A program made the position numbers and the translations under genes. From positions 287,501 through 351,500 of the forward strand of contig NZ_FNGS01000008.1 of assembly GCF_900103285.1 (NCBI RefSeq): a stretch of 64,000 nt of DNA, written 5' to 3'. The stretch's first letter is position 1. Each line of letters begins with the position of its first letter. Source of the stretch: Siphonobacter aquaeclarae. GTDB lineage: Bacteria; Bacteroidota; Bacteroidia; Cytophagales; Spirosomataceae. Under the pieces are notes generated by a model. That model did no database searches. It saw nothing but the letters and a program-made list of their open reading frames with translations, and was not told the DNA's origin. This document shows, piece by piece, positions 33,053 to 64,000 of this stretch.

Positions 33053-33853
33053 ATGAATATTCTGGAAAAGATTGTCCTGCACAAGAAGAAGGAGGTAGCC
33101 CAGGCCAAAGCCAATATTTCGGCCAAAGAACTGGAGCTTTTTCCGGCTTTCGGGCGGAAGGTAAACTCCCTGTCTGCCAGCCTGCTGGCCGAGGGTTCTT
33201 CCGGAATTATTGCCGAATTCAAGCGGAAATCGCCTTCGAAAGGGACGATCAACGACAAAGTACTCGTTCAGGACGTCACCGCAGCCTATTCCGCTGCCGG
33301 TGCTGCCGGCCTGTCGGTCCTGACCGACGAGGAGTTTTTCGGCGGTAATGCCGACGACCTTCAGCTGGCGCGCAAGTCCAACCCCCGGACGCCGGTACTC
33401 CGCAAGGATTTCATTGTCGATGAATACCAGATCCTCGAAGCCAAGGCGTGGGGAGCCGATGTTATCCTCCTGATTGCAGCCTGCCTGACGCCGGAAGAAA
33501 TCCGGAAGTATGCGGCTACTGCCCGTTCGCTGGGCCTCGAAGTACTCATGGAAGTACACGACGAAGAAGAATTGACCCGGAGCCTGACTCCCGATCTCAA
33601 CCTGATCGGCGTCAATAACCGGAACCTCAAAACCTTTGAGGTATCCATCGAGACCTCTCTCCGGCTGGTCGAACAAATTCCGGATACAGTTGTTAAAGTT
33701 TCAGAGAGTGGTCTCAGCAGCGCTGAAACCATTCGCCAGTTGCATACGGCCGGTTACCGGGGTTTTCTGATCGGAGAAAACTTCATGAAGACGCCCCATC
33801 CCGGGCAGGCGCTGTCCGACCTGGTCGGCGCGCTGCAGCAGGTAACGATCTGA
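33053..33853 (+). CDS. trpC: Indole-3-glycerol phosphate synthase
   Basis: 266 aa beta/alpha barrel that forms indole-3-glycerol phosphate from carboxyphenylamino-deoxyribulose phosphate. Signatures are IIAEFKRKSPSKG, LSVLTDEEFFGG, PVLRKDFIVDEYQI, IGVNNRNLKTFEV and VSESGLSS with VGENFMK-type ending LIGENFMK. Full length. It comes after the pseudouridine synthase, not after trpD as in a complete trp operon. Confidence 0.97.
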   Translation: MNILEKIVLHKKKEVAQAKANISAKELELFPAFGRKVNSLSASLLAEGSSGIIAEFKRKSPSKGTINDKVLVQDVTAAYSAAGAAGLSVLTDEEFFGGNADDLQLARKSNPRTPVLRKDFIVDEYQILEAKAWGADVILLIAACLTPEEIRKYAATARSLGLEVLMEVHDEEELTRSLTPDLNLIGVNNRNLKTFEVSIETSLRLVEQIPDTVVKVSESGLSSAETIRQLHTAGYRGFLIGENFMKTPHPGQALSDLVGALQQVTI

Positions 33854-33893
33854 ACACCTGACCATACGTTTCACCTTAAATCCCCACGAGCCT

Positions 33894-34541
33894 ATGCGAA
33901 TCAAAGTATGCGGTATGAAAGAGGCGGAGAATATTCGGGAATTACTGGATTTACAGCCTGATTATCTGGGGTTTATTTTCTTTGAGAAGTCCCCTCGCTA
34001 CGTAGGTGAATCGTTCGATCCGGAAATAATCCGGGAGATTCCCCGGTCAGTCCGGAAAGTCGGCGTTTTTGTGAATGCCTCGATCGATCAGGTCATACGA
34101 ACGGTCAAGAAGTATGCGCTGGATTATGTGCAGCTTCACGGTGAAGAAACGCCGGATTTTTGCCGGAGCCTTCAATTCAAGGGCGTGAATATCATCAAGG
34201 CATTCCGGGTGGACGATACCTTCAACTTTTCCCAGTTGAATAACTACAAACCTGTCTGCGACTATTTCCTCTTCGATACGAAAGCAAGCCAGTACGGCGG
34301 AACAGGAATAGCGTTTGACTGGGCCCTGCTTGAACGGTATGACAACGAAAAACCCTTCTTCCTGTCGGGCGGAATCGGTCCGGAAGATGCCGAGGTAATC
34401 CTCGACCTGAAGGAAAGGACGGGACTCAAGATTCACGCAGTCGACATCAACAGCAAATTCGAAATAGAACCCGGTCTGAAAGACATCGCACTGGTACGGG
34501 ATTTCATCGAACGCCTGAAAGCCGAAGAAATCGAAGCATAA
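33894..34541 (+). CDS. trpF: Phosphoribosylanthranilate isomerase
   Basis: 215 aa barrel that precedes TrpC in the pathway. N-terminal IKVCGMKEAENI carries the catalytic Cys, and the catalytic Asp is in DYFLFDTKASQYGGTG. The C-terminal phosphate loop is FLSGGIGPEDA and AVDINSKFEIEPGLKD. It follows trpC by 40 bp and ends at a strong terminator, so trpB and trpA are not in this operon. Confidence 0.96.
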   Translation: MRIKVCGMKEAENIRELLDLQPDYLGFIFFEKSPRYVGESFDPEIIREIPRSVRKVGVFVNASIDQVIRTVKKYALDYVQLHGEETPDFCRSLQFKGVNIIKAFRVDDTFNFSQLNNYKPVCDYFLFDTKASQYGGTGIAFDWALLERYDNEKPFFLSGGIGPEDAEVILDLKERTGLKIHAVDINSKFEIEPGLKDIALVRDFIERLKAEEIEA

Positions 34542-34547
34542 TCGAAT

Positions 34548-34586
34548 AAAAAAGAGCTTTCTCCAGAAACGGGGAAAGCTCTTTTT
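34548..34586 (+). terminator. Terminator after trpF
   Basis: A stem of about 12-13 bp (AAAGAGCTTTCTCC with GGGGAAAGCTCTTT, one wobble), a 6-nt loop and a CTTTTT tail. It closes the trpCF unit. Confidence 0.88.
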
Positions 34587-34607
34587 GGATTGATTTTGTA
34601 GAATCTT

Positions 34608-59001: not shown

Positions 59002-61284
59002 ATGTTGCGAGCTGAAAGTGTTGAAAAACGAAATCCGGTAACCATTCCGGTCACGGCCGATCTGGTCGTGGTGGGCGGAGGATTGTCCGGAACGTGTTGT
59101 GCGATTACGGCCGCCCGGGCGGGTATCCGCGTGATTCTGGTGACGGATCGCCCTGTTCTCGGAGGAAATTCCTCGAGCGAAGTGCGCCTGTGGGTACTCG
59201 GCGCGACGTCCCACATGGGTAACAACAACCGCTGGTCCAGGGAAGGCGGCGTACTCAACGAATTGCTGGTCGAAAATATGTACCGCAATCCGGAAGGCAA
59301 CCCGCTCATTTTTGATACCATTATTCTGGAAAAAGTAGTTCAGGAACCGAATATTACCCTGCTGCTGAATACCTCCGTCCACGACCTGGAAAAGGCTGAT
59401 CCTGATACCATTTCGAAGGTATTCGCTTTTTGCAGCCAGAATTCGACGGCCTATGAGCTGTCGGCGCCGCTTTTCTGCGATGCTTCGGGAGACGGTATCG
59501 TCGGCTTTCTGGCCGGAGCGGCCTTCCGGATGGGAGCGGAGGCTGCCGACGAGTTCGGGGAAAAGTTCGCGCCGACAGAGGAATACGGCGAGCTCCTCGG
59601 CCATTCCATGTATTTCTATTCGAAGGATACCGGTAAGCCGGTGCGGTTCGTCCCGCCGAGCTATGCCATCGATGTGACGAAGGAGGTACCCCGCTTCCGC
59701 CGGTTTACAGCCAAAGAGCAGGGCTGCCAGTTGTGGTGGCTCGAGTACGGCGGCCGCCTCGATACCGTCCACGATACCGAGAAGATCAAATGGGAGCTCT
59801 GGAAAGTGGTGTACGGGGTGTGGGACTATATCAAGAATTCCGGCAAGTTTCCCGAGGCGGAAACGATGACGCTCGAATGGGTCGGAACCATTCCCGGCAA
59901 ACGGGAAAGCCGGCGCTTCGAAGGAGATTACATGCTGCATCAGCAGGACGTTGTCGAGCAGCGCGCCCATTACGACGACGTAGCCTTTGGCGGCTGGAGT
60001 ATCGATTTGCACCCGGCTGACGGGGTTTTCAGCGAAAAACCGGGCTGCAACCAATGGCATAGCAAAGGCATTTACGGCATCCCGTACCGCACCTATTATT
60101 CCCGCAATATCAAAAACCTGTTTCTCGCCGGACGGATTATTTCCGCCAGTCACGTCGCCTTCGGATCGGCGCGGGTAATGGCGACGAGCGCGCACGGCGG
60201 GCAGGCTGTTGGTATGGCAGCCGTTCTTTGTACCCGGGAAAACCTGTTGCCGAAAGACCTGGCCGCTCCCGAACGGGTGGCTGAGTTGCAGCAGGAACTA
60301 TTGAAAATCGGACAGCATATTCCCAACCTGCGGTTGAAAGACGGGCAGGATCTGGTACAGAGCGCCGCCCTTTCCGCGAGCAGCACACTGGTACTGCGGG
60401 AGCTGACGGAGGATACCGACCCCCTGCCGATGGAGTTTTCTATCGGACAGTTGCTTCCGGTACAGGCGGGGGCTTTTCCGAAGATAATCGTACATCCGTA
60501 TGCCAGTCAGCCGACCGAACTGGAGGTAGAGCTGCGGATCGCCAGTCGGTCTGACAACCATACGCCGGACGTGTTGCTTGCTGCCAAAACCCTCTCGCTG
60601 GCACCGGGACGCAACTGCATTCACCTCGAATGGGACGTAACGATTGCAGAATCGGCTTATGCTTTTTTGATTTTCCGGAAAAACGAAAACGTATCATTCC
60701 GGTATTCCGAAAAACGGATCACGGGTGTACTTTCAGTCTTTAACCTCGTCAATGAAGCCGTCTCGAACTATGGCCGTCAGGAACCTACCGAAGACATCGG
60801 CGTCGACACCTTCGAATTCTGGTGCCCGCAGCGGCGGCCGGCAGGTCTCAACCTCGCGCTGAAAGTAGAGAGCGGATTACCGTTTTTTGCCGCGGAAAAC
60901 ATCCGGAATGGCCTGCAACGGCCTACCAATCAGCCCAATGCCTGGGTAGCTGACCCGGCAGATCAGGATCCCGAACTGCAAATCCGCTGGAAGGAACCGA
61001 AGGAAATCGGTCGGGTGGAGCTGAGTTTCGATACCGATTTTGATCACCCGATGGAAAACGTGCTGATGACGCATCCGGAGACCGTCATGCCGTTTTGTGT
61101 GCAGGCATTCCGGGTACTGGACGACGCGGGCAATGTCCTGTTTACCGAAACGGCCAACCACGAAACCCGGCGGACCATCCGGTTCGAAAAGCCGGTTAAA
61201 ACCTCAGGGCTTCGGATTCAGATCGATCACCCGTCGGCACAAACGCCCGCTGCTCTGATGGAGGTTCGGGCATACGCTGGATAG
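59002..61284 (+). CDS. Cytoplasmic-looking FAD-dependent oxidoreductase with C-terminal beta domains
   Basis: 760 aa without a signal peptide. FAD_oxidored domain: ADLVVVGGGLSGTCCAITAA (GGGLSG at 25-30), DRPVLGGNSSSEVRLWVLGA, FCDASGDGIVGFLAGA, GTIPGKRESRRFEGDYML and NLFLAGRIISASHVAFGSARVM, all parallel to the secreted enzyme at 49002. Residues from about 450 onward form beta-rich domains instead of an N-terminal module. The two are distant paralogues, apparently one exported and one internal, which suggests oxidation on both sides of the membrane. Last gene of the set. Confidence 0.83.
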   Translation: MLRAESVEKRNPVTIPVTADLVVVGGGLSGTCCAITAARAGIRVILVTDRPVLGGNSSSEVRLWVLGATSHMGNNNRWSREGGVLNELLVENMYRNPEGNPLIFDTIILEKVVQEPNITLLLNTSVHDLEKADPDTISKVFAFCSQNSTAYELSAPLFCDASGDGIVGFLAGAAFRMGAEAADEFGEKFAPTEEYGELLGHSMYFYSKDTGKPVRFVPPSYAIDVTKEVPRFRRFTAKEQGCQLWWLEYGGRLDTVHDTEKIKWELWKVVYGVWDYIKNSGKFPEAETMTLEWVGTIPGKRESRRFEGDYMLHQQDVVEQRAHYDDVAFGGWSIDLHPADGVFSEKPGCNQWHSKGIYGIPYRTYYSRNIKNLFLAGRIISASHVAFGSARVMATSAHGGQAVGMAAVLCTRENLLPKDLAAPERVAELQQELLKIGQHIPNLRLKDGQDLVQSAALSASSTLVLRELTEDTDPLPMEFSIGQLLPVQAGAFPKIIVHPYASQPTELEVELRIASRSDNHTPDVLLAAKTLSLAPGRNCIHLEWDVTIAESAYAFLIFRKNENVSFRYSEKRITGVLSVFNLVNEAVSNYGRQEPTEDIGVDTFEFWCPQRRPAGLNLALKVESGLPFFAAENIRNGLQRPTNQPNAWVADPADQDPELQIRWKEPKEIGRVELSFDTDFDHPMENVLMTHPETVMPFCVQAFRVLDDAGNVLFTETANHETRRTIRFEKPVKTSGLRIQIDHPSAQTPAALMEVRAYAG

Positions 61285-61333
61285 TTTTTCGAAAAAAGTG
61301 GAATAGCTCCGTCGTTCCGTACAAATTGTTTTA

Positions 61334-61341
61334 TAAGTTTG
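61334..61341 (+). promoter_or_regulatory. Candidate -7 element of the trpBA promoter
   Basis: TAAGTTTG matches TAnnTTTG exactly, 24 bp before the leader-peptide ATG. No good TTG is visible at 19-21 nt upstream. Confidence 0.55.
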
Positions 61342-61365
61342 TCGCACGAAAATCAGAACCAGATA

Positions 61366-61419
61366 ATGATCACAATTTCTGCAAAAGCTTGGTGGTGGCA
61401 CCCGGGATACCTCGGTTGA
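61366..61419 (+). CDS. trp leader peptide with three consecutive Trp codons
   Basis: A 17-codon frame, MITISAKAWWWHPGYLG, with TGG TGG TGG at 61390-61398 and stop at 61417-61419. It lies 24 bp after a -7 element and upstream of an intrinsic terminator that precedes trpB. Three adjacent Trp codons in a short leader is the hallmark of ribosome-mediated trp attenuation. Its stop codon overlaps the 5' arm of the antiterminator. Confidence 0.9.
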   Translation: MITISAKAWWWHPGYLG

Positions 61420-61485
61420 GCAGCCTGTTTTTGCGTGATCTTTTGGATATATACGCCGCTGTTCAACCCGAACAGCGGTTTTTTT
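61414..61485 (+). promoter_or_regulatory. trpBA attenuator (antiterminator and terminator)
   Basis: Terminator: a perfect 9-bp stem CCGCTGTTC (61456-61464) with GAACAGCGG (61470-61478), 5-nt loop and seven T (61479-61485). Antiterminator: GGTTGAGCAGC (61414-61424) can pair with GCTGTTCAACC (61458-61468), 11 bp with one G-U, sharing the terminator 5' arm. A ribosome stalled at the Trp codons leaves 61414-61424 free; a ribosome reaching the stop covers it. I saw no strong third (anti-antiterminator) stem, so control may be by direct ribosome masking. Confidence 0.88.
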
Positions 61486-61506
61486 GTGCCTCATAAAATC
61501 AAACAC

Positions 61507-62706
61507 ATGCAGATTACCGAACAAGTGCGCAGCCCGTACCAGGTCGATGAGCGGGGCTACTACGGTCCTTACGGCGGGGCTTTCATCCCGGAAATGCTGT
61601 ACCCGAATGTGCAGGAACTGAAGGAAAACTACCTGACTATCATGGCCGATCCTTCCTTTCAGGCCGAATTTCAGTTGTTGCTGACGGATTATGTAGGTCG
61701 CCCGACACCCCTGTATTTCGCCCAGCGTCTCTCCGAAACCTATGGTACACAGGTGTATCTGAAACGGGAAGATCTGTGCCATACCGGTGCACACAAGGTT
61801 AATAATACCATCGGGCAGATCCTGCTGGCACGCCGGCTTGGGAAAAAGAAGATCGTTGCCGAAACCGGCGCCGGGCAGCACGGCGTAGCCACGGCTACCG
61901 TCTGTGCGCTAATGGGAATGGAATGCATCGTATATATGGGCGAAATCGACATCGAGCGGCAGGCGCCGAACGTGGCCCGCATGAAGATGCTCGGCGCGGA
62001 GGTACGCCCGGCGACGAGCGGTTCCAAAACCCTGAAGGATGCTACCAATGAGGCCATGCGGCATTGGATCAACAACCCGGTGGATACACATTATATAATA
62101 GGTAGTGTCGTTGGGCCCCACCCGTACCCGGATATGGTGGCGCGTTTTCAGTCTGTCATTTCAGAAGAGATACGGAATCAGCTGCAGGAAAAGACCGGTT
62201 CTCCGCTTCCCAATTACGTGATCGCGTGTGTGGGCGGGGGCTCCAATGCCGCCGGCGCTTTTTACCACTACCTGCATGAAACGTCGGTGAAGCTCGTCGC
62301 AGCAGAGGCCGCCGGTCTGGGTGTCTATTCAGGTCATACTGCTGCCACCACTTTCCTCGGTAAACCGGGAGTACTGCACGGCAGCCGGAGTATTCTGATG
62401 CAGACGGAAGACGGGCAGGTTGTTGAGCCGTTCTCCATTTCAGCGGGCCTGGATTATCCGGGTATCGGCCCCATGCACGCCAACCTGGCTACGTCCGGCC
62501 GTGGTATTTTCAAGGCTATTACCGATGAAGAGGCGTTGACGGCAGGTTTTGAACTCGCCAAACTCGAAGGAATTATCCCGGCGCTGGAATCATCACATGC
62601 GCTGGCTTCCCTGAAGACCCTGGGCGCCGGACCGGACGAGGTCGTTGTGGTAAACCTTTCCGGGCGGGGTGACAAAGACCTGGCCACTTACATGAAACAC
62701 CTCTGA
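61507..62706 (+). CDS. trpB: Tryptophan synthase beta chain
   Basis: 399 aa PLP enzyme joining indole and serine. The PLP lysine is K97 in [12 protein letters not shown]; other blocks are [39 protein letters not shown] and LDYPGIGP. The start is the ATG at 61507, 22 bp after the attenuator T-run; an in-frame upstream codon inside the terminator is rejected. It is cotranscribed with trpA 18 bp downstream. Confidence 0.98.
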
Positions 62707-62724
62707 GCAAAGCAGCTACCAACC

Positions 62725-63501
62725 ATGACCAATCGTATCACTCACTTATTCAGTCAACAGTCGGGCCGGTTGCTGAACGTCTATTTCACGGCAGGTTTTC
62801 CGCAACTCAACGACACCCGTACTATATTAAAGAGCCTGGAGGCTGCCGGCGCCGATCTGGTTGAGATCGGCATGCCGTATTCCGACCCGGTCGCCGACGG
62901 CGAAACGATTCAATTATCGAACGACAAAGCCCTTCACAACGGAATGACCGTCAAGACCCTCTTTGAACAATTGGAGGGCATGCGGGAAGAAGTTTCCGTG
63001 CCGGTATTACTGATGGGGTATATAAATCCTGTTATTCAGTTCGGGGTAGAAGCCTTTTGCCGGAGATGCCGGGAAGTAGGGGTCGACGGGCTTATTCTGC
63101 CTGATTTGCCGGCGGATGTGTATGAGGAGGAATTCAAGCCCTTGTTTGATCAGTATGGCCTGGTGAATATCTTCCTGATTACGCCGCAGACGGCGGATGA
63201 TCGCATCCGGCACATTGACAGCATATCAGAAGGATTTATCTATATGGTTTCGTCGGCGAGTACTACCGGCGCGAAAGCAGGGATTACTGCGGACCAGGAA
63301 GCCTATTTCAACCGGGTGAACGCCATGAACCTGAAAAACCCGCGCCTGATTGGTTTCGGGATTTCGGATAATGCGTCGTTCGAGCGGGCCAGTCAATACG
63401 CCGCCGGTGCGATTATTGGCAGTGCGTTTATTAAAGCGATTGCTGATACGCCGGATTTGCCGGGTACGATTGACGGATTTGTCCGGAAAGTCAAAGGCTG
63501 A
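62725..63501 (+). CDS. trpA: Tryptophan synthase alpha chain
   Basis: 258 aa barrel that cleaves indole-3-glycerol phosphate. It has the catalytic Glu in LVEIGMPYSDPVADG with the Asp of the same loop, then PVLLMGYINPVIQFG, LILPDLPADVYEEEF and VSSASTTGAKAGI. Full length, ends at a terminator. It works with TrpB as an alpha2-beta2 complex. Confidence 0.97.
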   Translation: MTNRITHLFSQQSGRLLNVYFTAGFPQLNDTRTILKSLEAAGADLVEIGMPYSDPVADGETIQLSNDKALHNGMTVKTLFEQLEGMREEVSVPVLLMGYINPVIQFGVEAFCRRCREVGVDGLILPDLPADVYEEEFKPLFDQYGLVNIFLITPQTADDRIRHIDSISEGFIYMVSSASTTGAKAGITADQEAYFNRVNAMNLKNPRLIGFGISDNASFERASQYAAGAIIGSAFIKAIADTPDLPGTIDGFVRKVKG

Positions 63502-63518
63502 AAGGAAGGAAATAGCAT

Positions 63519-63564
63519 CAAAACGGGCTGAGGTAAATCAAAACCACAGTCCGTTTTGGTTTTT
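63519..63564 (+). terminator. Terminator after trpA
   Basis: Stem CAAAACGG (63519-63526) with CCGTTTTG (63550-63557), an inner CTG/CAG extension, and a T-run at 63559-63564. Downstream, 63565-63665 holds no gene. Confidence 0.85.
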
Positions 63565-63665
63565 TGCGGGAAGGGGCTCTATTTTTTTTCGAGGTATAAG
63601 CTCCTGAGGGGTAAGGAGTTAAGGGATTAGAGTGGATAGTAAGAAAAAATAGTTTGGTAGAAGTG

Positions 63666-63697
63666 TTGACAAGAGGGGGTAAAAAGCTGCATCTTTG
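63666..63697 (+). promoter_or_regulatory. Stable-RNA-type promoter 1 of three
   Basis: TTGACA (63666-63671) and CATCTTTG (63690-63697), 21-nt spacer, followed by CACTCCC. One base differs from the -7 consensus. Confidence 0.75.
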
Positions 63698-63784
63698 CAC
63701 TCCCAAACGACGGGAAGAGGGAATGTAAGCTGGTGTAAGTAATTGAGGGAGAGGGAGTTAGGAAAAATAAATTTAAAATTTTTC

Positions 63785-63816
63785 TTGACAATGGGGTGTT
63801 AAAATGACTAGTTTTG
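63785..63816 (+). promoter_or_regulatory. Stable-RNA-type promoter 2 of three
   Basis: TTGACA (63785-63790) and TAGTTTTG (63809-63816), 21-nt spacer, followed by CAACCCGG. Both elements match the consensus exactly. The sequence between promoters is purine-rich and non-coding. Confidence 0.85.
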
Positions 63817-63888
63817 CAACCCGGTTAAGGGAAGAAAGGAAAAGGGAGTGGGGTTGAGGCGAGGGCGAAAAAAAACTTTCAAAAATTC

Positions 63889-63919
63889 TTGACAAGCGGC
63901 TTTCGAAGTAGTAACTTTG
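63889..63919 (+). promoter_or_regulatory. Stable-RNA-type promoter 3 of three
   Basis: TTGACA (63889-63894) and TAACTTTG (63912-63919), 20-nt spacer, followed by CAGCCCGG. The 81 bp that follow to the window end contain no gene and look like an RNA leader. A stable-RNA operon, most likely rRNA, is expected next. Confidence 0.85.
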
Positions 63920-64000
63920 CAGCCCGGTTTGAAAGAAAGACCAAAAAAAGAAAACGGAAAAGCGGAATTTGGCTTTGAAGTTTTAACAAGAGTAGCGAAC

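Follow-up and report, generated by a model that had tools for sequence, protein, structure and literature searches.

This locus raises the question of what a short reading frame with a run of Trp codons, followed by a hairpin and a T tract, is doing directly before trpB in Siphonobacter aquaeclarae. The window considered here is the whole stretch of 64,000 nucleotides that was analyzed. Sequence comparison and folding models together make it very likely that the element is a predicted Trp-codon transcription attenuator before trpBA, likely copied from an element before trpE, and that read-through would take place only upon ribosome stalling.

The leader peptide ORF (MITISAKAWWWHPGYLG*) was read directly from the letters of the + strand at 61366..61419. 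It begins with ATG at 61366 and has 17 codons, with TGG TGG TGG at 61390-61398 and the stop codon TGA at 61417-61419, which bears out the 17-codon leader with three adjacent Trp codons described in an earlier, sequence-only reading of this DNA. Upstream, at 61334..61341 (+), lies a predicted -7 promoter element, TAAGTTTG, of the Bacteroidota type TAnnTTTG, a promoter motif named in the accessible part of PMC6414381. An element of the TAAGTTTG type was present in all 11 attenuator elements of the genus, 53-58 nt upstream of the first Trp codon, and TAnnTTTG occurred in 33 of the 47 elements of the wider comparison described below, against 1.9 expected from mononucleotide shuffles.

Three competing structures follow. 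In the minimum-energy fold, a 1:2-type (protector) hairpin at 61368..61440 (+) encloses the Trp codons, with an outer stem GATCAC/GTGATC and a next stem GCAAAAGC/GTTTTTGC whose 3' partners form the stretch just beyond region 2. Region 2, the 5' arm of the antiterminator (GGTTGAGCAGC, 61414..61424, +), contains the leader stop codon, and region 3, the 3' arm (GCTGTTCAACC, 61458..61468, +), overlaps the 5' arm and the loop of the terminator. The inverted-repeat search paired these arms over 11 nt with 91% complementarity, the odd pair being G-U; the 11-bp antiterminator sharing a terminator arm, as earlier proposed, was thus recovered with one G-U pair. Finally, an intrinsic terminator (CCGCTGTTC-5-GAACAGCGG, then T7) occupies 61456..61485 (+), as seen by direct reading, the inverted-repeat search, and a terminator scan; its arms (61456-61464 and 61470-61478) are complementary over all 9 nt (100%) and precede T7, so that the perfect 9-bp hairpin with seven T also stands. 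Terminator-like sites within 61280-63700 showed no excess (2 versus 3.0 expected from shuffles), the window terminator being among the 2.

The genes that follow are trpB, the tryptophan synthase beta chain (61507..62706, +; TIGR00263 equivalog, 575 bits), and trpA, the alpha chain (62725..63501, +; TIGR00262, 217 bits). Upstream of its ATG, the trpB frame stays open through the entire terminator as far as a GTG at 61435 (61435-61506), which is probably due to chance. Beyond trpA, at the contig end (63660-63921), are three tandem stretches with TTGAC (63666, 63785, and 63889), each followed by TTTGCA ~27-28 nt later; these resemble strong promoters placed one after another and may belong to a ribosomal RNA operon where the assembly broke.

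The element folds far better than chance. The region 61366-61485 reached -45.1 kcal/mol versus -29.6 +/- 3.3 for 200 dinucleotide shuffles (z = -4.7), with 0/200 as good. For the 1:2 hairpin region (61366-61442), the values were -27.9 kcal/mol and z = -2.8, with 2/200 shuffles as good, and when the 11 genus elements were folded to a consensus, the inner part of this hairpin appeared again. The statement that no strong 1:2 pause hairpin is present was therefore contradicted by this z score and by both the minimum-energy and the consensus folds. The Trp-codon pattern itself is not rare, as TGGTGGTGG was counted 82 times (46 + 36) in the 6.19-Mb genome and the reversed control pattern 51 + 35 times. 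Its placement is what is improbable: the chance of a sense TGGTGGTGG within 300 nt before a given gene is ~0.002, and that of finding it before both trpE and trpB is ~4e-6.

According to the mechanism proposed here, transcription would start just downstream of TAAGTTTG. Under a shortage of charged tRNA-Trp, a ribosome would stall at the three Trp codons, opening the 1:2 hairpin but halting before region 2, which lies 15 nt beyond the last Trp codon. The freed region 2 (61414-61424) would pair with region 3 (61458-61468) once the latter is transcribed, and the terminator would be blocked. When Trp is plentiful, the ribosome would reach the stop codon within region 2 and mask it, the terminator (61456-61478 with T7) would form, and RNA polymerase would enter trpBA only upon ribosome stalling at the three Trp codons. 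Stalling, read-through, and the response to Trp are predicted behaviors, which we infer from the arrangement of the parts and from modeling.

The sequence-only reading had proposed a two-state fold as a check, and we modeled one with a masked ribosome whose footprint was assumed to extend from -16 to +13 nt. In this model, a ribosome masked at W1, W2, or W3 gave an antiterminator probability of 1.00 at transcript end 61468 and of 0.92 at 61472, while a ribosome at the stop codon gave 0.00. The latter value agrees with the claim that a ribosome finishing the leader would mask the 5' antiterminator arm, as does the location of the stop codon within this arm in 10 of the 11 genus elements, the exception being the trpE copy of the window genome. 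Without a ribosome, the probability was 0.42 at end 61468 and 0.85 at 61472, and consequently the 1:2 hairpin would be protective only if it formed first. The complete terminator was favored at equilibrium in all states, stalled ribosome included (P >=0.95 at end 61485), so read-through must be kinetic, with the switch working during transcription. These equilibrium and no-ribosome results are the main ones against a simple thermodynamic reading.

Within Siphonobacter, the element is conserved. A WWW leader lies within 500 nt before trpB in 6/6 genus genomes and an attenuator element before trpE in 5/5 genus genomes with a recognized trpE; a search at E 1e-100 detected no trpE in the sixth, G002, a genome 92% complete. 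In all 11 elements (6 trpBA and 5 trpE), the WWW run is retained and lies 14-16 nt from region 2. A model built from these 11 elements (R1) was used to search the six genus genomes, with 150 first-look candidates scored per genome; the genus elements scored 110-149 bits and all other reported matches <=36 bits, the three highest of the latter overlapping the same elements on the opposite strand. An exact core pattern taken from the genus was found in 6 stretches among 84,980 species genomes, all of them Siphonobacter trp leaders, distributed over three genomes, each of which has one stretch upstream of trpE and another upstream of trpB. Outside the genus R1 is not a clean detector: 53 of 194 genomes of the order (own included) matched it at E <=0.1, and the 19 non-genus loci fetched comprised 11 with a WWW leader adjoining trpE, 1 with WWW and no trpE in view, and 7 with neither, the strongest match among these 7 having an E value of 5e-7.

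The competing stems were compared across the 47 elements whose last 300 nt contain TGGTGG, after 8 trpE regions lacking it had been dropped. Pairing of region 2 with the terminator arm was better than in mononucleotide shuffles of region 2 at p <=0.05 in 34/47 elements and not in 13/47; for the window element, 0/200 shuffles were as good, and the only genus miss was L067, for which the script picked the wrong hairpin. The 1:2 pairing reached p <=0.05 in 22/47 elements and not in 25/47, with genus misses in L005, L006, L069, and L070. In swaps between genera (37 representatives), the native antiterminator pairing was better by 3.15 kcal/mol (Wilcoxon p = 8e-8), with 19% of the representatives better than every swap and 27% in the best 5%, and the native 1:2 pairing was better by 2.17 kcal/mol on average (p = 9e-4). 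Matched changes of the two arms were also visible by eye, as GGUUGAGCAGC/GCUGUUCAACC in the window, GAGAUGAACAG/CUGUUUAUCUC in L074, and GCGAUAAGUC/GACUUAUCGC in L110. Relatives retain the competing stems with matched changes, some elements excepted, and the evidence for the 1:2 hairpin is weaker than that for the antiterminator.

Two other explanations of the locus have to be weighed against these data. A constitutive early terminator preceded by a chance Trp-rich short ORF would hold trpBA at a fixed low level with no sensing, and it would fit the preference for the terminator at equilibrium in every modeled state. Nevertheless, it does not account for a WWW run kept at the same spacing in 11/11 genus elements, for a region 2 that changes in step with the terminator arm and loop between genera, or for core-pattern stretches of which all 6 precede trpE or trpB, and we regard it as very unlikely. 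A sensor other than the ribosome, that is, a Trp repressor, a TRAP-like protein, or a T-box, is scarcely credible at all, as no point in its favor was found. TrpR over the cut-off was absent from all 29 genomes searched, own included, with one sub-cut-off match; no Rfam family, T-box included, matched 60500-64000 at E <=1; and none of these three sensors would explain an uninterrupted run of Trp codons. The parts of a ribosome-mediated attenuator were found instead: a Trp-codon leader ORF, a terminator before the first structural gene, a matched antiterminator, and, in the model, masking at the stop codon. A trp attenuator with a WWW leader before trpB, as earlier suggested, is thus well supported, with the WWW run, its spacing, and the competing stems kept among relatives.

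Contrary to the sequence-only reading, the predicted control does not concern trpBA alone. The trp genes of this genome are found at three places, trpEGD, trpCF, and trpBA (trpG and trpD of the first being named by sight from their starts), with an attenuator at two of the three. One of the 82 TGGTGGTGG sites precedes trpE, within the leader MIISFAQAWWWQPESSVEQPCYA, and regions 2 and 3 of this sister attenuator are the same as in the trpB element. One base is missing between its Trp codons and region 2, and its stop codon therefore lies 19 nt further on, beyond region 2. The third locus, comprising trpC and trpF (33053..34541, +; trpC with PF00218 and starting at 33053, trpF identified by eye from the order of the ORFs and a TrpF-like end present in relatives), lacks such a leader, as no WW could be read in the sense direction within the 3.8 kb surrounding trpC; the ORF before trpC is pseudouridine-synthase-like, as named by sight. 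Directly after trpF, at 34547-34590, a terminator-like stem (GAGCTTTC ... GAAAGCTC, then T) was seen by eye, where trpCF transcription likely ends. Some 27 kb of other genes (34541-61366), including a sodium:solute symporter, a GH2 glycosidase, and an FAD oxidoreductase, separate trpCF from trpBA. Outside the window, the same contig encodes at G000:C11:58288-59337 a further TrpB-like protein, a distant one with 35% identity across residues 64-398, which is perhaps of the TrpB2 kind.

In all 6 genus genomes, trpC and trpB are on the same strand of one contig, with start-to-start distances from 1.9 kb in G002 to ~28 kb in the window genome. The order in G002 is trpC, trpF, terminator-like stem, promoter element, attenuator, and trpB.

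Relatives outside the genus show a different arrangement. TrpB matches were obtained in 53 genomes and the upstream region was read for 50, the other three having only partial or distant matches; TrpE matches were obtained in 51 genomes, of which 50 were fetched and one was lost to a contig end, leaving 49 trpE regions. A WW or WWW leader was present in 42 of these 49 regions, genus and non-genus together. Within 500 nt of non-genus trpE (41/44 regions had the full 500 nt), WWW was found in 30/44, WW in 7/44, and neither in 7/44; the WW of L108, one of the 7 WW cases, looks like chance. In the region upstream of trpB, which the sequence-only reading had proposed to compare among relatives, the WWW leader of the 6/6 genus genomes occurred within 500 nt of trpB in 0/44 others, in 3 of which WW was present in frames that look like chance. 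Judging by eye from printed ends, trpB stands behind a TrpF-like ORF in 21 of the 24 non-genus loci with longer flanks. A single attenuator, located before trpE, is thus the usual arrangement, to which the genus adds a second before trpBA. We also searched plasmids with TrpE, and all 676 records were <60% identical. Transfer RNA genes between leader and trpE, suspected in two relatives, were discarded, as ARAGORN found none in the 6 loci searched.

The likely ancestral course would be that still seen in relatives, with a single element before trpE and trpB further downstream behind trpF; in the genus, with trpEGD, trpCF, and trpBA apart, trpBA would have received its own copy of the attenuator. 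The trpBA attenuator is thus likely a duplicate of the one at trpE, made during the break-up of the operon, with the relative timing of the two events inferred. Separate origins, in which the trpBA element does not come from trpE and attenuators arose or were acquired independently for each operon, would agree with the weakness of the short-element tree at the copy of the window, which is not placed (support 0.42), and the case for duplication consequently rests more on context than on the tree. This alternative is nonetheless rather improbable, given that, within the genus, trpBA elements share 69-77% identity with trpE elements and that all genus elements reach at least 110 bits with one model versus 56.5 for the best non-genus element among 194 genomes, a comparison that favors the genus because the model was built from it. 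Concerted evolution within genomes was considered and set aside: in pairwise identity, the copies from five genomes cluster according to gene and not to genome, with the two of the window genome unplaced.

The copies differ in their terminators. The U tract has 7 of 8 U in 6/6 genus trpBA elements and in the trpE copy of the window genome, whereas the trpE copies of L068-L070 have longer terminator stems with only 4-5 of 8 U behind them, and the stem of L067 looks broken by eye, as if trpE attenuation in L067-L070 were weakening. It is conceivable, although we consider it doubtful, that the genus, instead of relying on a Trp repressor, built a two-operon Trp regulon by copying the attenuator and that the copies drifted to different set-points in most species. 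In this tentative reading, the trpBA switch would be strict, its U tract being full in 6/6, and the trpE switch leakier, with fewer U in 4/5 and not in the genome of the window. If true, induction of the last pathway step would need a different degree of starvation from that of the first, for example, when indole or its precursor can be scavenged. Under the copying history, a regulon may survive the break-up of its operon when a cis-acting switch is copied with the genes, with no trans-acting replacement. The sister attenuators also form a natural pair whose set-points could be compared in one cell.

It is important to consider how this element relates to known systems. The enterobacterial trp leader encodes a leader peptide with two Trp codons and can form 1:2, 2:3, and 3:4 pairings. 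The window element resembles it (RF00513) in having a Trp-codon leader peptide and the same pairing scheme, and differs in its three Trp codons, the split trp genes, and the lack of a detected TrpR. RF00513 itself gave no match in the window at E <=10, and the trpE copy scored 13 bits versus a cut-off of 41; the weak Rfam matches to the two elements at E <=10 were scattered over unrelated families and were set aside. In Corynebacterium diphtheriae, attenuators have been predicted before trpB1EDGC and trpB2A (PMC1262725, accessible part), an arrangement that shares with ours separate predicted attenuators for a trpE-containing operon and for trpBA; that organism belongs to the Actinobacteria, and the likeness is one of the arrangement as described there, not of compared sequences.

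Closer in lineage, our literature search yielded no report of a trpBA attenuator in Bacteroidota, although most subscription literature lay outside it and absence is not proven. For Flavobacterium psychrophilum, a Bacteroid-trp RNA before the trp operon has been described, with Trp-leader attenuation inferred (PMC6414381), and leader-peptide attenuation has been proposed for amino-acid operons generally (PMC9723704), both as far as the accessible text goes. These accessible parts describe a single trp operon with trpA last and mention no second element before trpBA, unlike the window genome.

The Bacteroid-trp RNA corresponds to Rfam RF01692 (Weinberg et al. 2010, PMC2864571, accessible part). 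RF01692 matched 16/59 genomes at E <=1, directly before trpE in 11 of these 16, and exceeded the gathering cut-off (49 bits) in just 2/59, although 42/49 trpE regions have a WW or WWW leader. At E <=10, neither the window element nor its trpE sister was matched, and the sole weak match in their own genome (29 bits) lies away from both; the window element is therefore not filed as a member of RF01692. Both are nevertheless Bacteroidota trp leaders in which a large hairpin contains the run of Trp codons and the initial part of a terminator forms the end, and the window element is likely a divergent homologue of RF01692 that would work alike. The difference is that the genome of the window has two copies, trpBA also being preceded by one. 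The mechanism is thus a known one, and the interesting part would be the history, in which a copied attenuator keeps a split pathway under one signal.
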